This document shows, piece by piece, positions 6,361 through 33,212 of a stretch of 35,776 nucleotides of DNA. Both the position numbers and the translations under genes were made by a program. Location: assembly GCA_016867815.1 (NCBI GenBank), contig VGIR01000027.1, positions 1-35,776 of the forward strand, given 5' to 3'. Origin of the DNA: a candidate division WOR-3 bacterium. Its GTDB lineage: Bacteria; Hydrothermota; Tepidihabitantia; Tepidihabitantales; Tepidihabitantaceae. Every line of letters starts with the position of its first letter. Position 1 is the stretch's first letter. The notes beneath the pieces are model-generated. The model searched no databases. It saw only the letters and a program-made list of their open reading frames with translations, and had not been told where the DNA came from.

Positions 6361-6906
6361 ATGCCCAGAACACCTGCGAGAGATAGACCAGTGCCTTCTA
6401 CGCACCGGCGAACCGGAGTGCTGTCGCAGATGGAACTGGCCGCGACGGTGGCCGAGCCGACCAAGGAACGGCTGGAGGCAGGGCCGGTGGTGATGGTGGA
6501 GTGCATTGAGAACATCCCCTGCAACCCCTGCGCCTACGCCTGCCCGCGCAAGGCGATTACCATCGAAGGTGAACTGACCGACACTCCCCAGGTGGATTTC
6601 TCCAAGTGCAATGGCTGCACTCTCTGTATTGCCAAGTGCCCGGGGCTGGCGATATTCGTCGTGCACAAGAACTTCTCGACGACCGAAGCGGCAGTGACCA
6701 TTCCATACGAACTGCTGCCCCGGCCCGAGGCGGGCGCGAGGGTCGAGTGTCTTGACCGCGCCGGCCGAACGGTGGGCAAGGGCAGGGTAGTGAAGGTGCT
6801 TGACAGCAAGGCTTTGAACCGCTGCGCAGTAGTTACCGTGGCCGTGCCGAAACGCTTCTGGAATACGGTGCGCAGCATCCGGGTCGGGCGAAGGGGGAAG
6901 GGATGA
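6361..6906 (+). CDS. Two-cluster 4Fe-4S ferredoxin-like subunit
   Basis: A 181-residue electron-transfer protein with two Cys motifs: C-x5-C-x2-C-x3-CP in CIENIPCNPCAYACP and C-x2-C-x2-C-x3-CP in CNGCTLCIAKCP, enough for two [4Fe-4S] clusters. The C-terminal half (about 100 residues) is a beta-rich domain ending in VPKRFWNTVRSIRVG. Proteins of this layout accompany the BFD [2Fe-2S] and DAO-family flavoprotein subunits of multi-subunit amino-acid dehydrogenases; both occur 2-4 kb downstream. The leaderless ATG is used as start; an internal ATG at residue 24 (MELAATVAEP, after a GGAG) is an alternative. It overlaps the SppA gene by 4 bp (ATGA). Confidence 0.82.
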   Translation: MPRTPARDRPVPSTHRRTGVLSQMELAATVAEPTKERLEAGPVVMVECIENIPCNPCAYACPRKAITIEGELTDTPQVDFSKCNGCTLCIAKCPGLAIFVVHKNFSTTEAAVTIPYELLPRPEAGARVECLDRAGRTVGKGRVVKVLDSKALNRCAVVTVAVPKRFWNTVRSIRVGRRGKG

Positions 6907-9110
6907 TGGCAGGGCTTGCGCTCCTACTGGCGCTGGCGGGGACGCCTCAAATGCCGTTGTCACTCGCCGGGACCGATGACGCACTGGCAGTTTTCGGGAA
7001 CCCGGCCGGGCTCGGGGTGCGGCCGGGAACGGAGTTCTACGCCTTCTACCGCTTCCAGCCGGTGCTCTGGTCCCGGGCCCTATCCAACACGACGTTCCTG
7101 GCCAAGGCCGGGCCGCTGGCCGCCTACTGGGAACCGGAGCCGTCGCGGTATGGCATTGCGCTGGGCGTGGGTGACAAGGGCATCTACTCCGGTATCCGGT
7201 TCAGGCGTGACTCGCTCAACCACTGGGACCTGTCGGCCCTGGTAAGGGCGGCGCGGCAGGTATCGATCGCCGCATGCTGGGATGACTTGAACCACGATTT
7301 CGGCCGGGTCGCACTCGGCGCAGCCGTGCGGCCGTTCGGCAACCGGTTGACGTTGTTCGGAGAGACATACCTGGCGCTGCCGCTCCGGCCGATGGCCGGG
7401 CTCGAGGCCGAGCCGGTGGACGGGTTGAAGCTGGGACTGAAGGCGTTCTTCAGCGAGCACGCGGGCGATTCGCGGCTCGTAGCGAGTCTGTCGCTTGGCC
7501 TGGGCAAGGCGGGCGTCGGCGCCTTCGGCACCTACGACCCGCGCGCGGCCGGCGCGTACGTTCGGTTCGCGAAGCAGGGGCGTCGAATTGCAGCGCTGGA
7601 CGGAAAACGATACGTGGAGATTGAACTGAATGAGCGGATTGCTGACCGGAAGCCGGGCTTCAGTCTCAGCTCCGGGAGCGTACGCACGTCCTGGCAACTG
7701 CTCGATCTGATTGACCGCGCCGGTAGAGACCAGAGCGTGGGAGCACTCGTGCTCCGGATTGACGGCATCAGCGCGAGCTTCGCTCTGCTCCAGGAGCTGC
7801 GCCAGGCGCTGGCCGGGTTCCGGGCACAGGGCAAGAAGGTCATCGTCTACGCGCCCAGCTTCGGGATGGGAAGCTACTACGTTGCCTCGGTGGCGGACCG
7901 GGTATGGACCCACCCGCTGGGCGACGTCACCATCCCGGGCATGAGTATCGGAACGATATTCCTCAAGGGTACGCTGGAGAAGCTGGGAATACAGTTCGAC
8001 GGCACGCGGCACGGGAAGTACAAATCGGCAATCGAGACGTTCACCGAGGACTCCCTTACCTCACCGAACCGGGAGCAGCTCGAAGAGTACCTGGATGCTC
8101 CTTACGGTGAGTTCCTGGCCGCGGCTGCCGCCGGCCGCCGTGTCAGCCGCGACAGCATGGAGACTCTGGTCAATACCGGGTTCTTCAATACCGAAGAGGC
8201 GAAGCGGGCGGGGCTCGTGGACACGACCTGCTACCACGACCAGCTCGACAGCCTGCTCAGCAGGGAACTGACGGGTCTGCGCAAGGTGAGCGAGAAGCAG
8301 TACCGGGAAGGCTTCGCCGCCAGCGAGGATTGGGAACCGAGGCCGGCAGTCGCCATAGTCTACGCGAGCGGTTCGATCGCCGCCGGCGAATCGCGAACCG
8401 ATTTCCTGACCGGCGAGATGACCATGGGGGCACAGACCATGGTGCGGGCAATCCGTCAGGCCAGGAACGACAAGCGGGTCAAGGCACTGGTCCTGCGGAT
8501 CGACTCGCCGGGCGGGGACGGATTTGCTTCCGACATGATCTGGCGCGAGCTGGAGCTCTGCCGGCAGAAGAAGCCGGTCATTGCCTCCATGGCCGGGGTA
8601 GCCGGCTCGGGCGGATACTACATCGCCTGCAACGCGACCAGGGTCTTTGCCCTGCCGACAACTCTGACCGGTTCCATCGGCGTGTTCAACTTCAAACTCG
8701 TCACCGAGGGGTTGTACAACAAACTCGGGGCGAGGCGACAGGCGGTCAAACGCGGCGAGCACGCGGACGCGATGTCGGACGCCCGCGTCATGACCCCGGA
8801 AGAGGACTCGATGATGCAGGCGCAGGTGGACTATTTCTACAACCAGTTCGTGCAGAAGGTCGCAGACGGCAGGAAGCTGTCTCTCGAGAAGGTCGATTCA
8901 GTCGGCCAGGGACGGATATGGTCCGGGCTGGACGCGAAGCGCATCGGCATCGTCGACACGCTCGGCGGTTTCCTGGACGCGGTCGGATATGCGAAGCAGG
9001 TCGCGAAGCTGGAGGAGTGCGACTATGTCGTGCTGCCGGCGCCCAAAACCGGGTTCGGGAGCATGGTTGGTGACTTCGCCCAAAATCAAGTCAGAAAGGT
9101 CCTGCGGTGA
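6903..9110 (+). CDS. sppA: SppA-type signal peptide peptidase with N-terminal beta-barrel-like domain
   Basis: A 735-residue protein. From about residue 225 it is a tandem SppA of the 67-kDa type, a membrane-associated Ser-Lys protease that degrades cleaved signal peptides. The catalytic Lys is Lys374 in GKYKSAIE, the nucleophile Ser569 in AGSGGYYIA; the oxyanion loop LRIDSPGGDG precedes it. The first 220 residues are not part of SppA: after a short signal-like sequence comes DDALAVFGNPAGLGVRPG, a motif found at the start of PorV/FadL-like barrels, then amphipathic strands with many Gly/aromatic turns. The protein may therefore sit in the outer membrane with the protease in the periplasm; this is inference. 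It overlaps its neighbours by 4 bp on both sides, so it is co-translated with redox genes. Confidence 0.88.
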   Translation: MMAGLALLLALAGTPQMPLSLAGTDDALAVFGNPAGLGVRPGTEFYAFYRFQPVLWSRALSNTTFLAKAGPLAAYWEPEPSRYGIALGVGDKGIYSGIRFRRDSLNHWDLSALVRAARQVSIAACWDDLNHDFGRVALGAAVRPFGNRLTLFGETYLALPLRPMAGLEAEPVDGLKLGLKAFFSEHAGDSRLVASLSLGLGKAGVGAFGTYDPRAAGAYVRFAKQGRRIAALDGKRYVEIELNERIADRKPGFSLSSGSVRTSWQLLDLIDRAGRDQSVGALVLRIDGISASFALLQELRQALAGFRAQGKKVIVYAPSFGMGSYYVASVADRVWTHPLGDVTIPGMSIGTIFLKGTLEKLGIQFDGTRHGKYKSAIETFTEDSLTSPNREQLEEYLDAPYGEFLAAAAAGRRVSRDSMETLVNTGFFNTEEAKRAGLVDTTCYHDQLDSLLSRELTGLRKVSEKQYREGFAASEDWEPRPAVAIVYASGSIAAGESRTDFLTGEMTMGAQTMVRAIRQARNDKRVKALVLRIDSPGGDGFASDMIWRELELCRQKKPVIASMAGVAGSGGYYIACNATRVFALPTTLTGSIGVFNFKLVTEGLYNKLGARRQAVKRGEHADAMSDARVMTPEEDSMMQAQVDYFYNQFVQKVADGRKLSLEKVDSVGQGRIWSGLDAKRIGIVDTLGGFLDAVGYAKQVAKLEECDYVVLPAPKTGFGSMVGDFAQNQVRKVLR

Positions 9111-19969: not shown

Positions 19970-20058
19970 GTCGACTGAGGGCGACGCCGTCAGTGGTCGG
20001 CGCAGGCCACAACCGAATGGGTAGCGGCGGAATCGTGGCAAGGGTGCCTCGCGGGCGT

Positions 20059-22947
20059 ATGGAGCACCATGCTGCCGGCCTCGGACTGGTAGTGGTCATG
20101 CTTCTCACGGCCGTACCGGCCATGGCGCAGTACTCCTACTTTGGCGAGAACAAGGTGCAGACCCGTGACTACCAGTTCCGGACCTACGAAACCGAGCATT
20201 TCAGAGTGCTGTTCTACTCAGGTGGAGAGGGCCTGGCTGAGTTCGCCGGAAAGTCGGCAGAGGAGTACTACGCCCAGACAGCGAAGGACCTGGGTGTCGA
20301 GATTGAGGGCAAGATACCTCTGATCGTGTATCTGTCCCCCGGGCAGTTCAGCGAAACCAACGTGATACTGGATGTGATCGGCGAGGGCGTCGGGGGGTTC
20401 TCCGAGCTGATCAGGAATCGGATCGTGATTCCATTCAACGGGTCGTACAACGATCTCCACCATGTCATCGGCCACGAACTCACCCACATCTTCGAGTTCC
20501 AGATGTACTACCGGTCGCGGCTAGCGTCTCTGCTGGGAGCTATCGACGAGTTCAGCATTCCCCTCTGGGTGATAGAGGGCTTCGCTGAGTTCCAGTCCGG
20601 CTGGGTGAACGTCAGCTCGGATGCCTTCATGCGCGACCTCGTCGTGAACAACCGGCTGGTGCCGCTTCCGGACCTTCACGATGGGATGGGCTACCTCGTT
20701 TACCGGGAAGGCGAGTCGTTCTTCCGCTATGTCGAGGAGAAGTACGGCCGGAGGAAGGTGTACGAGTTCATGCTCGCGCTCCGGAACAAGCGGAGCCTGG
20801 ATGGGGCTTTCGCATCAGTCTTCGGGGTGACGGTGAAGCGGTTCAGCACGGACTGGGAGAGCTACCTGCGCGTGAAGTACTGGCCCCAGGTGGTGAAGTT
20901 GGACAACTTCAACCGTCTGGCAAGGCGCCTGACCAACCATGTGGATGACGGCTCGGTCTACAACACGGCACCGGCTATCTCGCCGAGCGGGACGAAGATC
21001 GTGATGATTTCGGACCGGTCGGAGTATGTCGACGTATACGTGATTTCGGCTTTCGACGGCCGGGTACTGAAGCGCCTGGTCAAGGGTGGGAGGTCAGGCG
21101 GGTTCGAGTCCATGCACCTCATCCGACCCGGGGTAGCCTGGTCTCCAGATGAGGAGATGATCGCAGTGGCTACGACCAGCGGGGGACGGGACAATCTCGC
21201 ACTCATCGACTATGCGACCGGCAAGGTCAGACGTCGCATCTACGGCGATCTCGATGCCATGTTCAGTCCCCGGTTCTCGCCCGATGGCAGCAAGATCGTT
21301 TTCGTGGGAGTCAAGAACGGGTTCAGTGACGTTTATGCCACACCAGTCAGCGGCGGTGAGCCCACACGGGTGACGTACGACATATACGAGGAGCGCGATC
21401 CGGTCTTCTCTCCAGGCGGCGACTCGATAGCCTTCGTGTCCGATCGGCCGGACGAGGGCGAGATTTGGGTACCTGGCCGCTATGCGGTTTGGACCAGGAG
21501 CAAGGCCGGCGAAATGGAGAGGCTCACCGACCGCGGAGGCCAGCTCTCACACCCCGAGTTTTCTCACTCCGGTCAGTATCTGCTCTATGCTGCCTCTGAT
21601 TCGGCCAGCAACGTCTACGCGTACTCGCTGGCGACGAAGCGCATCGTGCGACGGACGAACCTGCTGGGCGACGTCTCGTACCTCACGCTTTCACGCGACG
21701 ACCGCAAGCTGTCCTTTGCCTACTACTCCAATGTCGGTTGGGATGTCGCAGTCATGCTCGATCCGTTTGAAAACCTGCCGGTGGACTCGGGCAAGCCGTA
21801 CCAGCCTCCGCTGGACACGTACGCGTTCGAGAAGACCGGCCTCGATTTCAGCCGGGTTAAACCCGTGGGTTTCAACCTCTCCCTCGACTATGCGGCCGGC
21901 GCAGCTTCTTATGGAGGTACCTCCGGTGGCTTCGAAGGGGTGGTGGACATAGCGTTCAGCGATATGCTGGGAGACCACCGGTTCGAATTGTACACGGATT
22001 TGTATGGCGACATCCTGAACTCCAACCTGCTCTTCCAGTACTGGCACCTGCCTAGGCGAATTGACTACGGTTTCACCTTCTTCCAGCTCCAAGACGTCCG
22101 CCGCTACAACCCCTACCACATCTACGAAATCGACATCAACCGGGGACTGCAGGCGATAGGAGCTTATCCGCTCGATCGCTATTTCCGAGTCGAAACCGGA
22201 CCGACCGCCTACTACAGTGACGTGGAACGCGACACCTGGGTGGACTATCCCACGGTGCCGCAGTCGGGTTGGTACGTTGACAGCCTTTGGCGCGAGCTGG
22301 TCCTGTCCGGCGAAGCTGCCGTGGTCTTCGACAACACCTACTGGGACTATAACGGACCTGCCCGCGGCACCAGGGCGCGGCTTGGTGCGGATGCGTCTCT
22401 GTTTTCGACCCGGCAGTTCAGTAACGTCTTTCTGGACGTCCGCAACTACCAGAGACTCGGGCGCAGGTTTGTGTTCGCCAGCCGGCTGTTCGGCGTGTCC
22501 AGCTACGGCGTGGACGCCGACCGCTACTATGTCGGTGGGATTCGGTTCCTCGAGTATGCGCCCGGGCAGCTCGTGGTTAGAGGATACGAGCCGGCTGAGT
22601 TCTACGCGGACAACGGGCCGTCAGCGGCCACGTTCAATCTCGAACTGAGATTCCCGTTTGTCGACCGGGTCAAGCTGGCATTCCCGCTGCCGATCGAGTT
22701 CGGCGGCATCAGGGGAGTGGCGTTCCTTGATGGCGGTGTGGTCGTACCAGCGCCCGGGGATACGACCCGGCACTTCAAGCTGTGGGATGGCGGCACGGAT
22801 CGGTTCGGCGACCTGAAACTGGGAGTCGGATTCGGCGCCAGGGTGACACTATCCTATTTCCTGCTGAAATTCGACTTCGCCAGACCGCTCTCGAAAACCG
22901 ATGACAGCGGTTGGAAATTCATCCTCGGACTGGGTACCGATTTCTAG
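20059..22947 (+). CDS. Zinc peptidase / TolB-like propeller / Omp85-like barrel fusion
   Basis: A 962-residue outer-envelope protein. ATG 20059 gives a clean signal peptide (MEHHAAGLGLVVVMLLTAVP, cut after AMA-Q); the longer GTG frame at 19993 hides it. Residues about 30-260: a gluzincin-like peptidase (peptidase MA type) with HELTH at 139-143 and the downstream WVIEGFAEFQSG supplying the third ligand. Residues about 280-600: a WD40/PD40 beta-propeller (repeated SPDGSKIVFVG, FSPGGDSIAFVSDR, LSRDDRKLSFAYY blades). Residues about 610-962: a surface-antigen/Omp85-like barrel (RGTRARLGADASLFSTRQFS, FVFASRLFGVSSYG, FNLELRFPFVDRVKLAFPL, GVAFLDGG) ending in aromatic-x-Phe (GLGTDF), the usual C-terminal barrel signal. 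Function unknown. Four bases separate it from the next gene. Confidence 0.82.
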   Translation: MEHHAAGLGLVVVMLLTAVPAMAQYSYFGENKVQTRDYQFRTYETEHFRVLFYSGGEGLAEFAGKSAEEYYAQTAKDLGVEIEGKIPLIVYLSPGQFSETNVILDVIGEGVGGFSELIRNRIVIPFNGSYNDLHHVIGHELTHIFEFQMYYRSRLASLLGAIDEFSIPLWVIEGFAEFQSGWVNVSSDAFMRDLVVNNRLVPLPDLHDGMGYLVYREGESFFRYVEEKYGRRKVYEFMLALRNKRSLDGAFASVFGVTVKRFSTDWESYLRVKYWPQVVKLDNFNRLARRLTNHVDDGSVYNTAPAISPSGTKIVMISDRSEYVDVYVISAFDGRVLKRLVKGGRSGGFESMHLIRPGVAWSPDEEMIAVATTSGGRDNLALIDYATGKVRRRIYGDLDAMFSPRFSPDGSKIVFVGVKNGFSDVYATPVSGGEPTRVTYDIYEERDPVFSPGGDSIAFVSDRPDEGEIWVPGRYAVWTRSKAGEMERLTDRGGQLSHPEFSHSGQYLLYAASDSASNVYAYSLATKRIVRRTNLLGDVSYLTLSRDDRKLSFAYYSNVGWDVAVMLDPFENLPVDSGKPYQPPLDTYAFEKTGLDFSRVKPVGFNLSLDYAAGAASYGGTSGGFEGVVDIAFSDMLGDHRFELYTDLYGDILNSNLLFQYWHLPRRIDYGFTFFQLQDVRRYNPYHIYEIDINRGLQAIGAYPLDRYFRVETGPTAYYSDVERDTWVDYPTVPQSGWYVDSLWRELVLSGEAAVVFDNTYWDYNGPARGTRARLGADASLFSTRQFSNVFLDVRNYQRLGRRFVFASRLFGVSSYGVDADRYYVGGIRFLEYAPGQLVVRGYEPAEFYADNGPSAATFNLELRFPFVDRVKLAFPLPIEFGGIRGVAFLDGGVVVPAPGDTTRHFKLWDGGTDRFGDLKLGVGFGARVTLSYFLLKFDFARPLSKTDDSGWKFILGLGTDF

Positions 22948-22951
22948 GTCG

Positions 22952-24124
22952 GTGCGGAGTTCGATCACTGCCCTGGCTGCCGTCCTGACACTGTCATGTG
23001 CCGGCGTCCTGCGCAATGCTCGGCCTGTGGCGCCGGAGCAGGCAGGCGTGGGTGCGTGGGCAAAGCTTGCGCAGCTCAGATCGTTCCGGTTCTCGCTTAG
23101 CTTCCACACGGACGCGCCGCTGCCGATCGAGGTCAGGTTCACCGGCGTGCGCGAGCAGGCGGATCGGGAGGTCTGGTCCGGGTACATGCGCCGTCGAACT
23201 GAGCTGTCAAAGGTGGAGTTGAGGGCCGAAGGCCCGTACCAGTTCGAGAGGGAGCGGTCCGGCTGGCGTCGGACCAAGCGCGGGACTGAAACCAGGGTGC
23301 TGGAGCAGGGCGAGGGGACTTTCCGCGGCAGGCCACTCGAGTTCGTGGGTACAGAGCGCGGCCGCTACAGGTTCGTGTTCAGGCCGGACCTCCCGATCCT
23401 CGACCCTACTCAATCCAAGAAGCTGGTCGGGGTCATGGAGGTGGATCCCAATTCCGGGCTGCCGGTTCGCCTCTATTGCAGCGATTCAGCCGGGACGGCG
23501 GAATGGGAACTGCGGCTGGGGCGGTTCAATCGTGCCGGGTCGGTCGACGTCCCCTACGAACCGGCGATGACGCTCGATGCTACTCCAACCAAGAGACTGA
23601 ACCGGAGTGCGTTCGGGCTGGCGACGGCAGTAGTCAATCAGAGGTTGACGCGGTTGGGCTGGGACGGGCGGCTGCGCCGGACCGCGCGTGGACTGACACT
23701 GCTGCTCGGGCAGACCAAGTCGCGGCGCCAGGTCGATCTGCTCTTCAGCCGGGGCCGCGTCGAGGTATGGCAAGGTCGTTGGGTGAGTGCCGGCGAAAGC
23801 ACCGGCGCGGGGGTCGAGGTCGGCGGGGATGCTTCTCGCCGGGTTCTGCTGGAACTTCTGTTGGCGGAGAACGAGCGAATCGCGGCCGAGGTTCGCGCGG
23901 CCACTCCGCTCTCAGCCGCCCTCGCTACCTCAGTCGAGATCTCCGCTGACGGAGGACTGGCCGTTCTTGTGGTGGACGGCGCCGCCATGTCGTCAGCCAG
24001 CCCAGGGCCGGGCGGCGAACTGCTGTTTCAGGATATGGGCAACGAAGATGACGTGAGAGTCATCGCGGCTCTGGCCAACGGTGGCGTCACCCCGTCTGAA
24101 TTCCGGGTTACGGTCCGGCCATGA
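22952..24124 (+). CDS. Predicted outer-membrane lipoprotein, 390 aa
   Basis: GTG 22952 follows the upstream stop by 4 bp and gives MRSSITALAAVLTLSCAG, a clear lipoprotein signal with Cys16. Residues about 30-200 look like a LolA/LppX-type antiparallel sheet (SFRFSLSFHTDAPLPIEVRF, EGPYQFERERSGWRRTKRG, GRYRFVFRPDLP, GVMEVDPNSGLPVRLYC). The second half contains ATAVVNQRLTRLGWDGRLRR and GLTLLLGQTKSRRQVDLLFS, reminiscent of the SecD/SecF first periplasmic domain fold, and ends with a strand-like RVTVRP. No function can be assigned. Its place between the Omp85-like fusion and the PorU-like peptidase points to a job in outer-membrane assembly or secretion; that is inference. Confidence 0.72.
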   Translation: MRSSITALAAVLTLSCAGVLRNARPVAPEQAGVGAWAKLAQLRSFRFSLSFHTDAPLPIEVRFTGVREQADREVWSGYMRRRTELSKVELRAEGPYQFERERSGWRRTKRGTETRVLEQGEGTFRGRPLEFVGTERGRYRFVFRPDLPILDPTQSKKLVGVMEVDPNSGLPVRLYCSDSAGTAEWELRLGRFNRAGSVDVPYEPAMTLDATPTKRLNRSAFGLATAVVNQRLTRLGWDGRLRRTARGLTLLLGQTKSRRQVDLLFSRGRVEVWQGRWVSAGESTGAGVEVGGDASRRVLLELLLAENERIAAEVRAATPLSAALATSVEISADGGLAVLVVDGAAMSSASPGPGGELLFQDMGNEDDVRVIAALANGGVTPSEFRVTVRP

Positions 24125-24151
24125 CGGGCAAGGGCTGCCAGGCTGCTTGAC

Positions 24152-27100
24152 TTGAACCTCTACCATTCTAGACTCGTCTTCACGAAGACAAGACTGCTGC
24201 TTCTCCTCTTCTGCACACTCCCGGCCGCGCTGCCGGCCTCCCTGAACGTCCAGGTCTCGGACGAGAACGGAGTGTCGTTTCGATACGTGCCGGGACAAGT
24301 CAGGCTGACTGACTCCCCAGGCGGTCGCCAAGTCGTCGACTTCGATGACGCCGACCATCTCGCACAGCCCGGCGAGCCCGACTTACCGGGAAAGACGGTG
24401 CGCGTCGGGATTCCGCAGACCGGTGGTGTGCGGCTCAACTTCAGAACCGGACCGGAGCGCAGTCTGCAGTCGGTGCGACTGGCAACCGTGCCGCACATGT
24501 CCTGGAACGGCGACTCGTCGTGGTACGACGAGCTGCCGGACGAAGCCGTGGCTCTCTCGCGGCAGCCGGCCGAAGTCGGGCAAACAGAGGTCCTGCGCAG
24601 GAACAGGTTCGTGACGGTTCTGCTCAGCCCTTGCCGGTGCGACCCGGGGACGAACGGCTTGAGCTACTATGAGTGGATCGACGTGTCGATTGCCTTCGAG
24701 CACAGGCCATGGCGGAACAACGAGCCCGATCCGCTCGACGGTGCCGTGGCCGAGATGATGCTGAACGGCACCGAGGCGCTGGACTGGAAACTAGACTGGA
24801 CCGGGCCCGCGTCATCTCAATCGGTCTCCGCGGCTGCCGTCGGTCAGTTCCAGCGATCGTCGCACTGGCTCAAGATCAGTGTCGATTCCACCGGGATCTA
24901 CGGTGTCTCCGGGCACGATCTGGCCGCGGCCGGCCTGAGCCTTTCCGGGCTGGATCCGGCGACGCTTGCCATGTTCACCATCGGTGAGCACGAGCCAAAC
25001 AAGTCATATCCCGATAGCATGCAGCGGGTGCCGATACTCGTTCAGGGCGATCATGACGGCCGGCTCGACCCTGACGACCGCGTAGTGTTCTACGGCCTTG
25101 GGCCCAGCCACTGGGTCGGGAGGTGTTCGGCCTACGTCAAGAATCACTTCTCGCGACATAACGTCTACTGGCTGACCTGGGGAGGAACGCCAGGGGGGAG
25201 GATTCCTCTGGAACCGGGACCGGACACGGCCGGCACGCCGGTCGTATACATCGGGTCGGAAAGGCTGCACCAGGAGAAGGACCTGGACTGTCCGGCTCGC
25301 TCCGGACTGCTCTGGATCTGGTCGCAGATCTTCAAGGCGGCGGACCGCGACGTGGCGAAACTCGACCTGCCCCTGGATATCACCTCACCGGTACAGGTGC
25401 GGCGAATCGCCGGCAGCCTGCTGGCCGATGCGGGCGGGAATCGCGTTTCGGTGCTGTTCAACCACCGTCAGGTCGTTTCGTATGACGTTGCACAGTCCCT
25501 GCCAGCCAACCCGTTCAACTTCGCCGTCGATACGACGCTGCCGGCAAACTCCGGCCGCAACGTGCTGTCTCTTGAGCTGACCGGGCAAGGTCAGAAGCGG
25601 ATCTATCTTGACTACCTGGAGGTGGACTACTTGCGGCGGCTCTCTCTGCGTGAGGGTCAGCTGCACTTCCTGTATGACGATACCGGCAGTTTCCGGTTCT
25701 GCCTCAGGGATGTGCGTGAGCGGCCCCTGATGTTGGAGGTGACTGACCCTTACGCTCCGAGGATGTGCGACAGCGCCGACTGGTCCGGGGACAGCGCACG
25801 GTTCTGCGTACGTCTTGCCCGGCCGGCCGAGTTCGCGGCGGCGGGAGCGGGCGGATTGCTCAAGCCTGCGCGCATGGAACTGCGCCGGCCAGGCCGCCTG
25901 AGCGATATCGAGCGGCAGGCTGACTACTGGGTGGTGACGCCCAAGGAGTTCTTGAGTCCGGCCCAGCAACTGGCGCGCTATCGAACCGGGCGGGTCGCCG
26001 GTATCACTCACGCCGTCGCCCAGGTGGCGACGCTCGACGACATCTACGATGACTACGCGTTCGGCATGGAGGAACCGGGGGCACTGAAACGCTTCTTCAC
26101 CGACAAACACCCGGCCTACGGGCTCCTGGCCGGCGACGCAACCTGCGACTACAAAGCGGCGCTGGGCGAACGCCCTCCCGGAGTCCCCGCCTATGAGTAC
26201 GGGCTGGGGCTGAACCCCGATGCCTACGACCGGAGCGCGCTGGCATTCGACGCCTGGTACGCTGATTTTGACGGTGAGGGCAACAGCCCGGACATGGTGC
26301 TGGGCAGAGTCACGTGCCGCAGCGCGGCCGAACTCCGTCGATTCGTGGACAAGGTTATCGAGTACGAGGCGCAGCCGGCCGGGTTGTGGAACAAGCGGTA
26401 CCTGCTGCTCGCTGACGACGAATTCCTCGGGGAAGCCAATCCGAATGACCCCAAGAGGTGGGATCCCATCTCTTTCGGCCACATCATGTACTGCGAGGCG
26501 ATGGGTCTGATTCCCGAAAGCCAGCTGGACCTGGTCAAAGTCTACCTTACGGAATGGCCCTACGCAGGCATCAAGAACAAGCCGGGCGCGCACGCCGAGC
26601 TGGTACGGCAGATGAACCTCGGCGGGGTCGTTCTGGTTTTCTTCGGACACGGTGCCGGGTTCGATTTGACCCACGAGAGCGTGCTCAACATATCACATGT
26701 TGCGCAGGTCCAGAACGGTCACCATAGTCCGTTCTGCTACTTCGGCAGTTGTTCGGTTGGACGCTTTGAGGATACCCAGTCCGAGTGTATCGCCGAAGAG
26801 CTGGTGCGGCAGCCGAGTGGTGCGATCGCTTCGGTCGGTGCGACCAAGGCTACAGTAGCCGGGTCAAACCTCGTCTTCGCCCGGAGTCTGCTAACCCCGT
26901 TGTTCACCCAGCCCGATTCGACCATCGGCCACAGCTTCTTCCAGGCGTGGCCATATGACAGGATATACCACCTGTTCGGTGATCCCGCAACCGTGCTGCG
27001 CCTGCCTCACGCTTCGAACCAGGAGTTGGCGGTCGTGCCTGATACACTCAGCCCCGGGACGCGATTTCGCGTCGACGGCCGGGCTGACTCCACCGAAGCC

Positions 27101-28057
27101 GAGTTCGCCTGGTTGCTGCGCGGTCCCAGGAGGATCCGCACCTACCGCTCATTCCGGGGAACAACAAGCTACGAGTTGCCGGGTTCGGACCTGGCGCGCG
27201 GAACCGGCGACGTGGCCCAAGGGGAGTTCGCGTTTCAGGGCATATTCCCACTTGGCGTGCCTCTGGATACGGTCTTCGTGCCGAATGGCAACTATGCGCC
27301 GGTCGAGCGATCCTGCCGGGCGAGCATCTCGGCCTGGGGCGGTTCAGGGGACATGTCGTTCCTGAATGACACGATATGGTACTCAGGCGATCCGGCCACC
27401 CGGGATGATACGACACCACCTGTGGTTGGCTTCTACCGGCACGGCCACCCGCTGGAGAGCGGGACGCCGGTGCCGGTTGACTTTGAGCTGGAAGGCGTGG
27501 CTAGCGACAGCTCGGGCATAATGATCGCACCGGTCGCGGGAGACGCGCCGGTCTTCTACGTCAATGACCCGGCCTACGCGACCGATCTGACCGACCTGCT
27601 GGTCTTCGACGACCGGTCGTCGTCAACAGCCCGTTTTCGCCTCGCCCTGAAGCTGACCGGCCCGGTGGATTCGCTCTTCGTCGCGGTTTCCGACAATCTG
27701 CTCAATCGGGCCGTGGTCGGCATCGCGGTCAAGCCGCTCTTGTCGGACGTGCTCAGGGTTGAGTCGGTGCTCCCGTACCCGAACCCCGTGCGAACCGGCT
27801 GCAAGTTCACCTTCGTGCTCAGCAGGCAGGCAGACGTGCGCCTGCGGGTCTACTCGCTGGCAGGCCGCCTGGTGCGTGACCTTGGCTTCCGGCCGGCAGG
27901 CTTCGGGTACAATGGCATCGAATGGGATGGCCGCGACGGCAGCGGCAACGTGCCGGCGAACGGAGTGTACCTTTACGCGCTCACCGCCCAGGTAGACGAA
28001 GGGCCGGGCCGCCGGCAGCAGGTTACCGTGCGGGACAAACTGCTGCTGCTCAGGTAG
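24152..28057 (+). CDS. porU: PorU-like C25 peptidase with FlgD-like C-terminal domain
   Basis: A 1301-residue secreted protease of the gingipain family (C25). Signal sequence TKTRLLLLLFCTLPAALPA, then a gingipain-type propeptide (about 30-230), a long strand-rich region, and the caspase-like core (about 590-930). His833 in VLVFFGHGAGF and Cys867 in CYFGSCSVG form the catalytic pair, 34 apart, like gingipain R. The C-terminus (about 1205-1301) is a FlgD-type Ig domain: PYPNPVRTGCKFTFVLSRQ ... LRVYSLAGRLVRDLG ... GIEWDGRDGSGNVPANGVYLY. In Bacteroidota PorU is the T9SS sortase-like enzyme that attaches cargo and sits next to porV; a PorV-like gene follows here. TTG start; no better start in frame. 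A secreted C25 protease that is not PorU is the alternative. Confidence 0.82.
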   Translation: MNLYHSRLVFTKTRLLLLLFCTLPAALPASLNVQVSDENGVSFRYVPGQVRLTDSPGGRQVVDFDDADHLAQPGEPDLPGKTVRVGIPQTGGVRLNFRTGPERSLQSVRLATVPHMSWNGDSSWYDELPDEAVALSRQPAEVGQTEVLRRNRFVTVLLSPCRCDPGTNGLSYYEWIDVSIAFEHRPWRNNEPDPLDGAVAEMMLNGTEALDWKLDWTGPASSQSVSAAAVGQFQRSSHWLKISVDSTGIYGVSGHDLAAAGLSLSGLDPATLAMFTIGEHEPNKSYPDSMQRVPILVQGDHDGRLDPDDRVVFYGLGPSHWVGRCSAYVKNHFSRHNVYWLTWGGTPGGRIPLEPGPDTAGTPVVYIGSERLHQEKDLDCPARSGLLWIWSQIFKAADRDVAKLDLPLDITSPVQVRRIAGSLLADAGGNRVSVLFNHRQVVSYDVAQSLPANPFNFAVDTTLPANSGRNVLSLELTGQGQKRIYLDYLEVDYLRRLSLREGQLHFLYDDTGSFRFCLRDVRERPLMLEVTDPYAPRMCDSADWSGDSARFCVRLARPAEFAAAGAGGLLKPARMELRRPGRLSDIERQADYWVVTPKEFLSPAQQLARYRTGRVAGITHAVAQVATLDDIYDDYAFGMEEPGALKRFFTDKHPAYGLLAGDATCDYKAALGERPPGVPAYEYGLGLNPDAYDRSALAFDAWYADFDGEGNSPDMVLGRVTCRSAAELRRFVDKVIEYEAQPAGLWNKRYLLLADDEFLGEANPNDPKRWDPISFGHIMYCEAMGLIPESQLDLVKVYLTEWPYAGIKNKPGAHAELVRQMNLGGVVLVFFGHGAGFDLTHESVLNISHVAQVQNGHHSPFCYFGSCSVGRFEDTQSECIAEELVRQPSGAIASVGATKATVAGSNLVFARSLLTPLFTQPDSTIGHSFFQAWPYDRIYHLFGDPATVLRLPHASNQELAVVPDTLSPGTRFRVDGRADSTEAEFAWLLRGPRRIRTYRSFRGTTSYELPGSDLARGTGDVAQGEFAFQGIFPLGVPLDTVFVPNGNYAPVERSCRASISAWGGSGDMSFLNDTIWYSGDPATRDDTTPPVVGFYRHGHPLESGTPVPVDFELEGVASDSSGIMIAPVAGDAPVFYVNDPAYATDLTDLLVFDDRSSSTARFRLALKLTGPVDSLFVAVSDNLLNRAVVGIAVKPLLSDVLRVESVLPYPNPVRTGCKFTFVLSRQADVRLRVYSLAGRLVRDLGFRPAGFGYNGIEWDGRDGSGNVPANGVYLYALTAQVDEGPGRRQQVTVRDKLLLLR

Positions 28058-28096
28058 GGTGTGATGACTGCGGTCTCGCCCACGGAGTCCTTTAGC

Positions 28097-28124
28097 TTGA
28101 CCTTGACACCTCCCAACCTATAAT
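28097..28124 (+). promoter_or_regulatory. Promoter of the porV-like gene
   Basis: TTGACC (28097-28102), a 16-bp spacer and a perfect TATAAT (28119-28124). The leader of about 20 nt carries AAGGAG (28139-28144) before ATG 28153. The porV-like gene can thus be expressed apart from the porU-like gene. Confidence 0.72.
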
Positions 28125-28152
28125 TGTTTGTGACTACCAAGGAGAAGTTCGT

Positions 28153-29268
28153 ATGAGGAAGAAAGCCTGCTGGCTTGTGTTTGCAGCCCTGCTCGGGGTC
28201 GCAACCGCTAGCCAAAACCCGGGTGCCGTGTTCCTGATGATCTGGCCTGCGGCCCGACCGACCGGACTCGGCGGGGCCTTCACGGCGCTGGCTGATGACG
28301 CGAGCAGCGTCTACTACAACCAGGGGGCCATGGCGTTCCTGCAAGGAACTCACGCCACGCTGATGCACAGCAACTGGCTGCCGGGGTTGTACCCGGGCAT
28401 GTACTACGAGTATGCCGGTATCACGCACCAACTGCCGGGCTATGGCAGCGTCGGCGGAAACATCATCTATCTGACGACCGGCGAGACCGACGTCGTCAAT
28501 GATCGGGGAGATTTCCTCGGCCGCTACACCACGTTCGATGTTGCCGTGGCCGGCGGGTACGGCTATGCGGTTATGCCCAATCTCGGCGTCGGGGTCGGGG
28601 CCAAGTTCATCTACTCATTCCTGGTGCCGGACTGGGTCTGGGCGGCGATGCCGGAACTCGGCATCGAGGCGGGCGGCACCGGTATCACCTGGGCCCTGGA
28701 CGCGGGCGCTCTGTACAAGCCGTTCGACTTCCTGAACGTCGGACTCGCGTTGTCGAACATAGGACCGAACATCTCATACACCTCTTCCGGCGAATCCGAT
28801 CCTCTGCCGCGCATGCTGCGTCTCGGCGCATCTTACTTCCCGGTCAAGAACGACGTCGTGTCCGTGGCCGTAGTCCCCGAGATCTCGAAAATCCTGGTCG
28901 GGATGTTCTACGACACGACCGGCACCAAGACATTCAACCGCAAGCTGCAGGAAGAGATGCGTGATGCCTGGAAATCAATCGGGGTCGAGGCCAAGTTCGT
29001 CAACCTGCTCTATGCCAGGCTCGGCTACTTTGAGGATCTGACCGGTCAGCGTGGCGGCATCGTGCTGGAAAAAGAGGACAGCCAGACATACCACTACGGG
29101 ATCGGTGACGTGCTGATCCGCAGGAACCTCGGGAGCTTCAAGTCCATCGGCCTCTGCTTTGGAATCGGTGTCGAGTACGCGAAGTTCAAGTTTGACCTGA
29201 GCGTGGACCAGTTGATCTACGACTTCCCGACCTCGAACTACAAGTTCTCCTTCTCCTACCAGTTCTAG
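28153..29268 (+). CDS. porV: PorV/PorQ-family outer-membrane protein
   Basis: A 371-residue barrel of the FadL-related PorV family. Signal peptide MRKKACWLVFAALLGVATAS, then the family hallmark PTGLGGAFTALADDASSVYYNQGAMAF, followed by Gly/aromatic-rich strands (GYGSVGGNIIYL, LGVGVGAKFIYSF, DAGALYKPFDFLNVGLALSNIGPNI, PRMLRLGASYF) and a terminal SNYKFSFSYQF with C-terminal Phe for BAM recognition. In Bacteroidota T9SS, PorV binds cargo C-terminal domains and shuttles them to PorU. Here it directly follows the PorU-like gene with its own promoter and Shine-Dalgarno. Other T9SS parts (PorK/L/M/N, Sov/SprA) are not in the window. Confidence 0.88.
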   Translation: MRKKACWLVFAALLGVATASQNPGAVFLMIWPAARPTGLGGAFTALADDASSVYYNQGAMAFLQGTHATLMHSNWLPGLYPGMYYEYAGITHQLPGYGSVGGNIIYLTTGETDVVNDRGDFLGRYTTFDVAVAGGYGYAVMPNLGVGVGAKFIYSFLVPDWVWAAMPELGIEAGGTGITWALDAGALYKPFDFLNVGLALSNIGPNISYTSSGESDPLPRMLRLGASYFPVKNDVVSVAVVPEISKILVGMFYDTTGTKTFNRKLQEEMRDAWKSIGVEAKFVNLLYARLGYFEDLTGQRGGIVLEKEDSQTYHYGIGDVLIRRNLGSFKSIGLCFGIGVEYAKFKFDLSVDQLIYDFPTSNYKFSFSYQF

Positions 29269-31697: not shown

Positions 31698-33212
31698 GGG
31701 GCTGTTGAGAAACCACCCTTAGATTGGTGACGATGCTGGCATCGGCTGGTCTGACCTAGGACTCGGCCTGAAGAGCCGGATGAAGAGCATGAGAAGAAGT
31801 GCCGCCAGGCACTTCAAGTTCATCACCGCAGCCGTGAGATAGGCCTGGATCGCCACATTCCATCGCCCGCGCCGGACCGCACGCCGCAATCCGTGTAGGG
31901 TTTTCGCCTCGCCGTGCTTACCTTCTACCCGCCATTGGTGCCTTTGATACAGTTCTCTAGTATCGGCATCCCAGCCGCGTGCTTTGCGCCGCCGGGCACG
32001 GAGCAGCGCTTCATACCCGAGCACGATCCTGATCGTCCGATGGCAACTGCTCGGCGGTAGACAACGCTCCCGTAGCGGGCAATTGCGACAGTCGCATGAT
32101 CGTGACTGGTAGACTCTACTGCTATCATCCTTCTCTTTGCCCGGATGTAGCGTCTTTCCACCCGGGCAGTGTACCAACTCATATCGAGCATCGTACTTGA
32201 AGCGCCGAGCCGGTAGCTTCCTGGCTATACCGGGCTCGCGCTGCGGCGGTATCACCGCTTCGATCTTGTTCTTCTCCAACTCGGCGTAGTTGCGTGGATG
32301 GGCATAGCCGGCATCGGCCGTAACCGTCTTTACCTCGCGCTCGGTGTTACCTTCTACCCGCGCCACCTGTTCCAGCAGTTGTTTCCCCTCGCTATCTTCC
32401 CCGGTCGTGACCGCGACATCGACGATTACTCCCGTCCGGTCATCCACCGCCGTATTCTGCTTGAAACACGGCTCCATGCGCCGCTCGTGACTGGAAGTCG
32501 CTATCGTCGCCTCGGGATCAGTCAGACTGTGCTTCTCTATCTGCCCCTTGTGACTACGAGGAGGTCCCTGCCGGGACGGAGCCACTGCCCGCTGCTCATT
32601 ACCGTTCTCCCCTGAGTTCTCTAAGAGTACCTGCTCGGCATGGTCTTCGACCACGCTCTCCCAACTCACATCCGCCCGGATCAGCGTCGCATCAATGTGC
32701 ACCGTCTCACCGTCCACCAATCCGGCCGTGCAGCAAGCCGTTACCGTCCGCTGAAAGATATGCTTGAATCGCTCCTCACCCCACCGCTGCCTTATCCGCG
32801 TCAGACTGCTGTGGTCTGGCAACTCCTCATGCAACCGGTAGCCGGCAAACCACCGCATCGCCAGGTTTACCTGCGCCTCACGCATCAGCTTACGGTCATG
32901 GACGATGCCGGCAAAGAATCCGGCCAACATCAACCGCAAGGCCGCCTCGGGGTCGATACTGGGACGGCCATTGTCGGAGCAATAGCAGTCCGCCACCTCG
33001 TCCCGCAGCCAGGACAAGTCCAACACGCGGTCAAACCGCTTCAGGATATGGTCATCGGGCACCAGATCCCGGAGCGGACAGGCGACGAAGATGTCCTCGC
33101 GCCAGCGATCCTGATTACCTACCATTGTCAGGGGTGTCCTTTCGGTTGGGCGCCACTGCCTATTCGGACGCACCAGCCGCCAGAAAGATGTCAAGCCTTT
33201 TTCAACAGCCCC
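31698..33212 (-). mobile_element. Complete IS element, 1515 bp, with 5-bp target duplication
   Basis: The ends are GGGGCTGTTGAGAAA (31698-31712) and its inverted copy TTTTTCAACAGCCCC (33198-33212), 14 of 15 matching. AAGTG occurs immediately outside both ends (31693-31697 and 33213-33217), the mark of insertion. One transposase gene fills it on the minus strand. The layout and the DUF772 plus DDE transposase suggest the IS1182/IS5-like group. It is intact, so the insertion looks recent. The partial IS at 1-211 is a relative with the same end sequence. Confidence 0.88.
31719..33125 (-). CDS. DDE transposase, IS1182/IS5-like
   Basis: A 468-residue transposase. N-terminal DUF772-like region (ILKRFDRVLDLSWLRDEVADCY ... 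GRPSIDPEAALRLMLAGFFAG ... LHEELPDHSSLTRIRQRWGEE), then the RNase-H-like core: first Asp in VHIDATLIRADVSW, second in VTADAGYAHPRNYAELEK, Cys-rich insertion HCPGGKTLHPGK ... SCDCRNCPLRERCLPPS, and the catalytic Glu in WRVEGKHGEAKTLHGLRR. No frameshift or stop. ATG 33125 is chosen because AAAGGA lies upstream; the frame opens at 33194 next to the terminal repeat, which is a less likely start. Confidence 0.9.
   Translation of the reverse strand: MVGNQDRWREDIFVACPLRDLVPDDHILKRFDRVLDLSWLRDEVADCYCSDNGRPSIDPEAALRLMLAGFFAGIVHDRKLMREAQVNLAMRWFAGYRLHEELPDHSSLTRIRQRWGEERFKHIFQRTVTACCTAGLVDGETVHIDATLIRADVSWESVVEDHAEQVLLENSGENGNEQRAVAPSRQGPPRSHKGQIEKHSLTDPEATIATSSHERRMEPCFKQNTAVDDRTGVIVDVAVTTGEDSEGKQLLEQVARVEGNTEREVKTVTADAGYAHPRNYAELEKNKIEAVIPPQREPGIARKLPARRFKYDARYELVHCPGGKTLHPGKEKDDSSRVYQSRSCDCRNCPLRERCLPPSSCHRTIRIVLGYEALLRARRRKARGWDADTRELYQRHQWRVEGKHGEAKTLHGLRRAVRRGRWNVAIQAYLTAAVMNLKCLAALLLMLFIRLFRPSPRSDQPMPASSPI

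Follow-up and report, generated by a model that had tools for sequence, protein, structure and literature searches.

The window analysed here, a whole contig of 35,776 nucleotides (VGIR01000027.1) from a 3.37-Mb genome, 95% complete, of a candidate division WOR-3 bacterium, carries four plus-strand genes at positions 20059–29268, including a porU–porV pair of the kind known from the type IX secretion system (T9SS) of Bacteroidota. The open reading frames (ORFs) span 19993–22947, 22901–24124, 24152–28057, and 28153–29268, all on the plus strand, and the intergenic gaps of the four-gene set are 4, 27, and 95 bp. Pfam domains are Peptidase_MA_2, PD40, and Omp85 in the first product and Propeptide_C25, Peptidase_C25, and FlgD_ig in the third, the fourth matches PorV, and the second has no Pfam match. 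An earlier reading of the locus, made from the sequence only (hereafter the sequence-only reading), had proposed these four genes, three of them 4–27 bp apart, with porU and porV in the Bacteroidota order; the ORFs, domains, and measured gaps bear this out, and in Parabacteroides distasonis porV likewise directly follows porU, as read in record NZ_OY725768.1. The E-values of 9.5e-54 for the C25 domain, 1.5e-106 for the PorU model, and 2e-49 for the PorV family, together with a gene order kept over deep divergence, exclude a chance origin.

The third gene (24152–28057, plus strand) starts at a TTG, 27 bp downstream of the lipoprotein gene, and encodes a PorU-type C25 protease (sortase-like) of 1301 amino acids. 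The T9SS sortase model NF033707 matches residues 235–1283 with 357 bits (E 1.5e-106), nearly end to end (model positions 3–1081 of 1095). PorU (6za2) is the top PDB match, and a local alignment with P. distasonis PorU gives 21.6% identity over residues 239–1300. An ortholog with the same gene order in a WOR-3 genome of another family (G029) scores 448.7 bits, above the PorU cut-off of 420, and the same model gives only 41 bits for a plain C25 protein from a relative (G007, L047). It is thus full-length PorU homology, and not the C25 domain alone, that sets the window protease apart from a plain C25 enzyme. The catalytic His833 (GHG motif, codon at 26648–26650) and Cys867 (GSCSVG motif, codon at 26750–26752), correctly placed by the sequence-only reading, align in 22 of 22 WOR-3 PorU-type sequences and in P. 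distasonis PorU. The protein ends in a FlgD-like C-terminal domain (CTD; 27740–28054, plus strand), recognised by FlgD_ig (1e-07), by alignment (A2), and by a genome search. A PorU tree, with long branches and uneven composition, was not decisive and was left out as evidence. Sequence, architecture, and gene order support the assignment of the predicted protease to the PorU type. Elsewhere in the genome, a second PorU-like C25 protease gene (L043, contig C35, 10441–14529, minus strand; 353 bits to the PorU model) has no adjacent porV and adjoins a chromate transporter-like gene.

The fourth gene (28153–29268, plus strand) encodes a PorV-family outer-membrane barrel, the shuttle protein of the T9SS. 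It scores 168.9 bits against the PorV/PorQ family model NF033709, above the cut-off of 90, and has a profile match to PorV (6h3i_F, 1.1e-08). A comparison of predicted structures, suggested by the sequence-only reading, places PorV first: the model is of moderate confidence (mean predicted local distance difference test score, pLDDT, 71.6), its two top PDB fold matches are the PorV of T9SS translocons (8gl6_F, 2.3e-17; 6h3i_F, 4.9e-15), and FadL lies well behind (1.3e-10). The porU–porV adjacency is found in the window and in 11 other WOR-3 genomes. Between the two genes lies a promoter-like site, TTGACC-16-TATAAT (28097–28124, plus strand; 11 of 12 consensus matches), and a TTGACC/T-16/17-TATAAT element occupies this position in all 11 WOR-3 family loci (11/11), with a weaker -10 in four of the 11 and with variation in the rest of the spacer. 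Since a match to the consensus does not demonstrate transcription, the site is called promoter-like only. A putative promoter of its own for porV would fit published work in which the PorV shuttle is described as likely produced in excess or recycled (PMC12618676), and its conservation weakens a strict one-operon view. Of the earlier suggestion that the four genes form one module, the conserved four-gene order therefore stands, while the single operon has lost ground.

The genome, covered by family searches and selected regions, also encodes the translocon. A full-length SprA/Sov homolog of 1876 amino acids on contig C32 (L041, 11913–19836) scores 445 bits against TIGR04189 (cut-off 200), so that the search for SprA proposed by the sequence-only reading gave a positive answer. 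The gene lies between dxs-like and comEA-like genes, a neighbourhood kept in most relatives examined. SprA_N is present in all 31 relatives (31/31), across the phylum 94 of 100 genomes have it, and SprA relatives also occur in metagenome-assembled genomes (MAGs) titled TA06, Zixibacteria, Gemmatimonadetes, Cloacimonadota, Calditrichota, and Neomarinimicrobiota. The sequence-only reading had noted that motor and translocon genes were not seen; this holds for the window, the genome carrying its translocon gene on another contig. An orphan module lacking a translocon is ruled out by SprA in the same genome, and the idea that the barrel–protease fusion encoded by the first gene replaces a known translocon part finds no support for the same reason.

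Candidate cargo is abundant. A profile built from the PorU CTD and 12 others matches at least 132 places in the genome (G000), a lower bound since 150 of 280 candidates were scored, and this answers in the affirmative whether other proteins carry the same FlgD-like domain. Alignment of 13 such CTDs (A2) revealed an invariant Gly in all and a near-terminal Lys in 12 of 13. An L-beta3-beta4 Gly and a C-terminal Lys have been described for T9SS Type A domains (PMC11285876; PMC10994853), and we equate the conserved residues of the WOR-3 domains with these. The window PorU scores 16.4 bits against TIGR04183, below the cut-off of 23; this cut-off is passed by the CTDs of proteins from G006 (48 bits), G013, and G029.

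It is highly probable that the window holds the porU–porV attachment and shuttle part of a T9SS core that is near-universal in the WOR-3 phylum. From the computed features (identities, gene order, SprA, cargo domains, and the promoter-like site), a transport path may be inferred. Proteins with a signal peptide and a FlgD-like CTD would reach the periplasm by Sec and cross the outer membrane through SprA. PorV would take up the cargo via the CTD and hand it to PorU, which would cut the CTD and then attach or release the cargo. Several points weigh against this interpretation. Identity to the Bacteroidota members is just 21–27%; the window PorU, at 357 bits, falls under the NCBI equivalog cut-off of 420, and the PorV equivalog score of 105 is under its cut-off of 250; the motor was not found, in searches that included no positive control; the roles of both upstream genes are based on synteny and fold only; and PorU activity and secretion are predictions. 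The WOR-3 system is best described as homologous to the T9SS core and presumably working like it, with the motor unaccounted for; calling it a complete, canonical T9SS is not warranted.

The likeness to the Bacteroidota T9SS extends to the SprA translocon, the PorV barrel, PorU with its His and Cys, the porU–porV order, and the Gly and Lys of the CTD. In contrast to that system, GldL, GldM, and GldN are not recognisable in WOR-3, the CTD of the window PorU matches FlgD_ig and stays under the TIGR04183 cut-off, an Omp85 fusion and a LolA/SecD-P1 lipoprotein lie upstream of porU, and SprA is shorter than the 2472 amino acids of P. distasonis. The WOR-3 module is a variant T9SS and not a new secretion route. 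Reviews treat the T9SS as specific to Bacteroidota, or as merely possible in other phyla of the Fibrobacterota–Chlorobiota–Bacteroidota (FCB) group (PMC7463736, PMC11285876). The phyla in which it is considered possible include Chlorobiota, Ignavibacteriota, Rhodothermota, Gemmatimonadetes, Cloacimonadota, and Fibrobacterota (PMC11285876); the extension described here is of the same kind, though that list does not include WOR-3. C-terminal sorting domains have been noted in uncultured bacterioplankton lineages including SAR406 (PMC5596340). Our literature search found no paper linking WOR-3 with 'type IX secretion'. The result is an uncultured phylum with a near-universal translocon, a single genome with more than 100 proteins as candidate cargo, and no recognisable counterpart of the part regarded as the power source. 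It is reported that translocons of F. johnsoniae stall with bound substrate once the motor is removed (PMC10994853); a T9SS core lacking the known motor thus makes the powering of substrate release testable by comparison.

The energy for transport would come either from a strongly diverged motor or from another proton-driven complex. The motor and ring searches were run without a T9SS-positive control genome, none of the 14 control genomes being positive and no Bacteroidota T9SS genome being among them. Within this limit, GldM_1st gave no match above cut-off in 31 WOR-3 genomes (0/31), the window's own included, nor in 20 other SprA-bearing genomes and 60 genomes from the phylum to which L090 (see below) belongs. 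The full-length GldM model found 0 of 100 phylum genomes; above cut-off, GldL_N found 0 of 31, the own genome included, and GldN (PF19841) 0 of 60; PorK was not searched for. Given these controls, the GldL, GldM, and GldN result is absence of detection and not proof of absence. One alternative, from which we lean away only slightly, is that WOR-3 has the full canonical T9SS and that its PorL/M motor and PorK/N ring are too diverged for the Pfam and NCBIfam models to recognise. SprA, PorV, and PorU are themselves only 21–27% identical to those of P. distasonis, small membrane proteins could escape detection, and the missing positive control adds to this. However, two independent GldM models, one GldL model, and one GldN model all stayed below cut-off in WOR-3, the 20 other SprA-bearing genomes also lacked a GldM match above cut-off, and SprA_N, likewise a T9SS family model, does match 94 of the 100 genomes.

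Two candidate controls were rejected. L090 (DYGG01000002.1), a MAG titled Ignavibacterium, groups by phylum with the Zixibacteria loci, so it could not serve as a Bacteroidota positive control, and its title is probably wrong. The P. distasonis record, 'plasmid 23' (L247, L248; NZ_OY725768.1), comprises only 388 kb, with no annotated gld gene in the approximately 170 kb read, and was set aside as a motor control. It carries sprA, porU–porV, alaS, and a mur cluster, and with such housekeeping genes it resembles a chromosomal fragment.

Candidates for a different proton-driven complex come from the ExbB-type genes, two or three of which are present in every one of ten WOR-3 genomes. One of their clusters is Tol-Pal. 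A second, found in most genomes, joins ExbB-ExbD-ExbD-TonB to a CTD protein and a TonB-dependent receptor; a lipoprotein gene lies between the latter two. The own genome has this cluster on contig C28 (L201, 8191–16219), and further copies are at L204, L206, L208, L209, L213, L216, L219, and L224. A T9SS-type cargo gene sits between the TonB and receptor genes in several WOR-3 genomes, and some loci do not show every gene of the set. The third cluster (L200, contig C91, 2908–11062) has eight genes, encoding a FlgD-domain protein, a PorV/PorQ-type barrel, a TPR protein, ExbB, ExbD, ExbD, TonB, and another FlgD-domain protein. It is conserved in the majority of the WOR-3 genomes checked, occurring in G000, G003, G006, G009, G013, and G029 and partially in G030 and G019; the additional loci are L214, L225/L203, L215, L211, L223, L207, and L217, of which L207 and L217 are partial. 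The name 'PorZ-like' was rejected for its first gene since the NCBIfam match is restricted to the C-terminal domain.

The composition of the eight-gene cluster alone leads to the hypothesis that it acts in type IX secretion. The cluster would then supply the power through ExbB-ExbD-ExbD-TonB, together with a large TPR protein and a barrel of the PorV/PorQ type, which we consider rather unlikely. The cluster is present in six WOR-3 genomes and intact in one SprA-bearing Zixibacteria genome (L227, 280–11389), its barrel, with a FlgD-like tail, comes near the PorV/PorQ family cut-off (85.9 vs. 90 bits), and the large TPR protein weakly matches PorW/SprE. Yet nothing links the cluster directly to SprA or porU, it is absent from or was not seen in the SprA-bearing G028 and G023, and the TPR matches are of a generic kind. 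In architecture, the cluster is also similar to the non-T9SS Agl-Glt machinery of Myxococcus (AglR/Q/S, GltG, GltC, and outer-membrane barrels; PMC3169522), in which an ExbB, a pair of ExbD, and TonB-like and TPR proteins are likewise combined with an outer-membrane barrel; in contrast to Agl-Glt, the WOR-3 barrel belongs to the PorV/PorQ type and FlgD-like domains occur in several of the cluster proteins. In its broader form, that in WOR-3 and perhaps in non-Bacteroidota FCB phyla ExbB-ExbD-ExbD-TonB drives the translocon via the TPR protein and the PorV/PorQ-type barrel instead of PorL/M, the proposal is equally doubtful. If true, PorL/M would be a Bacteroidota-specific replacement and not a component that defines type IX secretion.

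The two genes upstream of porU bear on whether the locus is a machine of its own. The first (20059–22947, plus strand) is predicted to encode an exported fusion of a Peptidase_MA-type metallopeptidase, a TolB-like beta-propeller, and an Omp85 barrel (Peptidase_MA_2 1.1e-10, PD40 1.2e-16, Omp85 9.7e-10); its ORF opens at 19993, and the in-frame ATG at 20059 gives a good signal peptide. At 32.5 bits against the NCBIfam BamA model (equivalog cut-off 297), its sequence makes it a member of the Omp85 superfamily and, by the NCBI cut-off, not BamA. The second gene (22952–24124, plus strand) begins, after a 4-bp gap, with a GTG start that yields a lipoprotein signal, and Cys16 is invariant (alignment A3). 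Searches of Pfam and NCBIfam gave no family match, and neither SecD nor LolA was matched at the sequence level, the likeness being at the level of fold only. The AlphaFold model (pLDDT 86.2) gave Foldseek matches to LprF (4.5e-07), LolA (1.9e-06), and SecDF (3aqo_C, 3.1e-06). The predicted fold thus resembles both the LolA/LolB/LprG lipid-binding fold and the periplasmic P1 domain of SecDF, and the model suggests a LolA-like N-terminal domain followed by a SecD-P1-like C-terminal domain, a split drawn from the order of secondary-structure elements since the fold search gave no residue ranges. In contrast to SecD, the two domains seem to be joined in one lipoprotein with no SecD membrane helices.

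The order Omp85 fusion–lipoprotein–porU was found in five own-genus genomes and in G009, G013, G007, and G014, and again in G029 of another family at 24–47% identity with one gene inserted, so the conservation of the four-gene order in related genomes, for which the sequence-only reading had asked, is observed. In G006, G012, G017, and G008, only porU–porV–purA–hypB is kept and the upstream pair does not adjoin, which makes the pair a frequent neighbour and not an obligate part. The same split counts against the view that the four genes form a self-contained, SprA-independent export complex with the Omp85–protease fusion as its channel. The tight spacing and the order kept in several genera and another family would suit that view, but the genome encodes SprA, which is near-universal in the phylum, and porV has a promoter-like site of its own, so we consider it very unlikely. 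Under the T9SS-core interpretation, the Omp85 fusion, tied to secretion by synteny only, and the lipoprotein are most likely co-expressed envelope helpers, which may act in barrel or lipid handling or in holding cargo in the periplasm. Conserved beside porU–porV, they are new candidate accessory factors. That the locus holds an ordinary secreted C25 enzyme and an ordinary FadL-type porin as chance neighbours is scarcely credible and already contradicted: both kinds of protein are widespread, and a relative does have a plain C25 protein (G007, L047), but the PorU match is full-length, porU adjoins porV in Bacteroidota as well as in 12 WOR-3 genomes, the best fold match of the barrel is PorV, and the His/Cys dyad is conserved.

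Two further features of the window lie outside the four-gene set. The protein encoded at 6903–9110 has S49 (SppA-type) peptidase domains and an N-terminal NPAGLG motif that recalls FadL/PorV barrels, making it a possible protease–barrel fusion. A DDE transposase gene (31719–33194, minus strand) lies near the downstream flank of the module.

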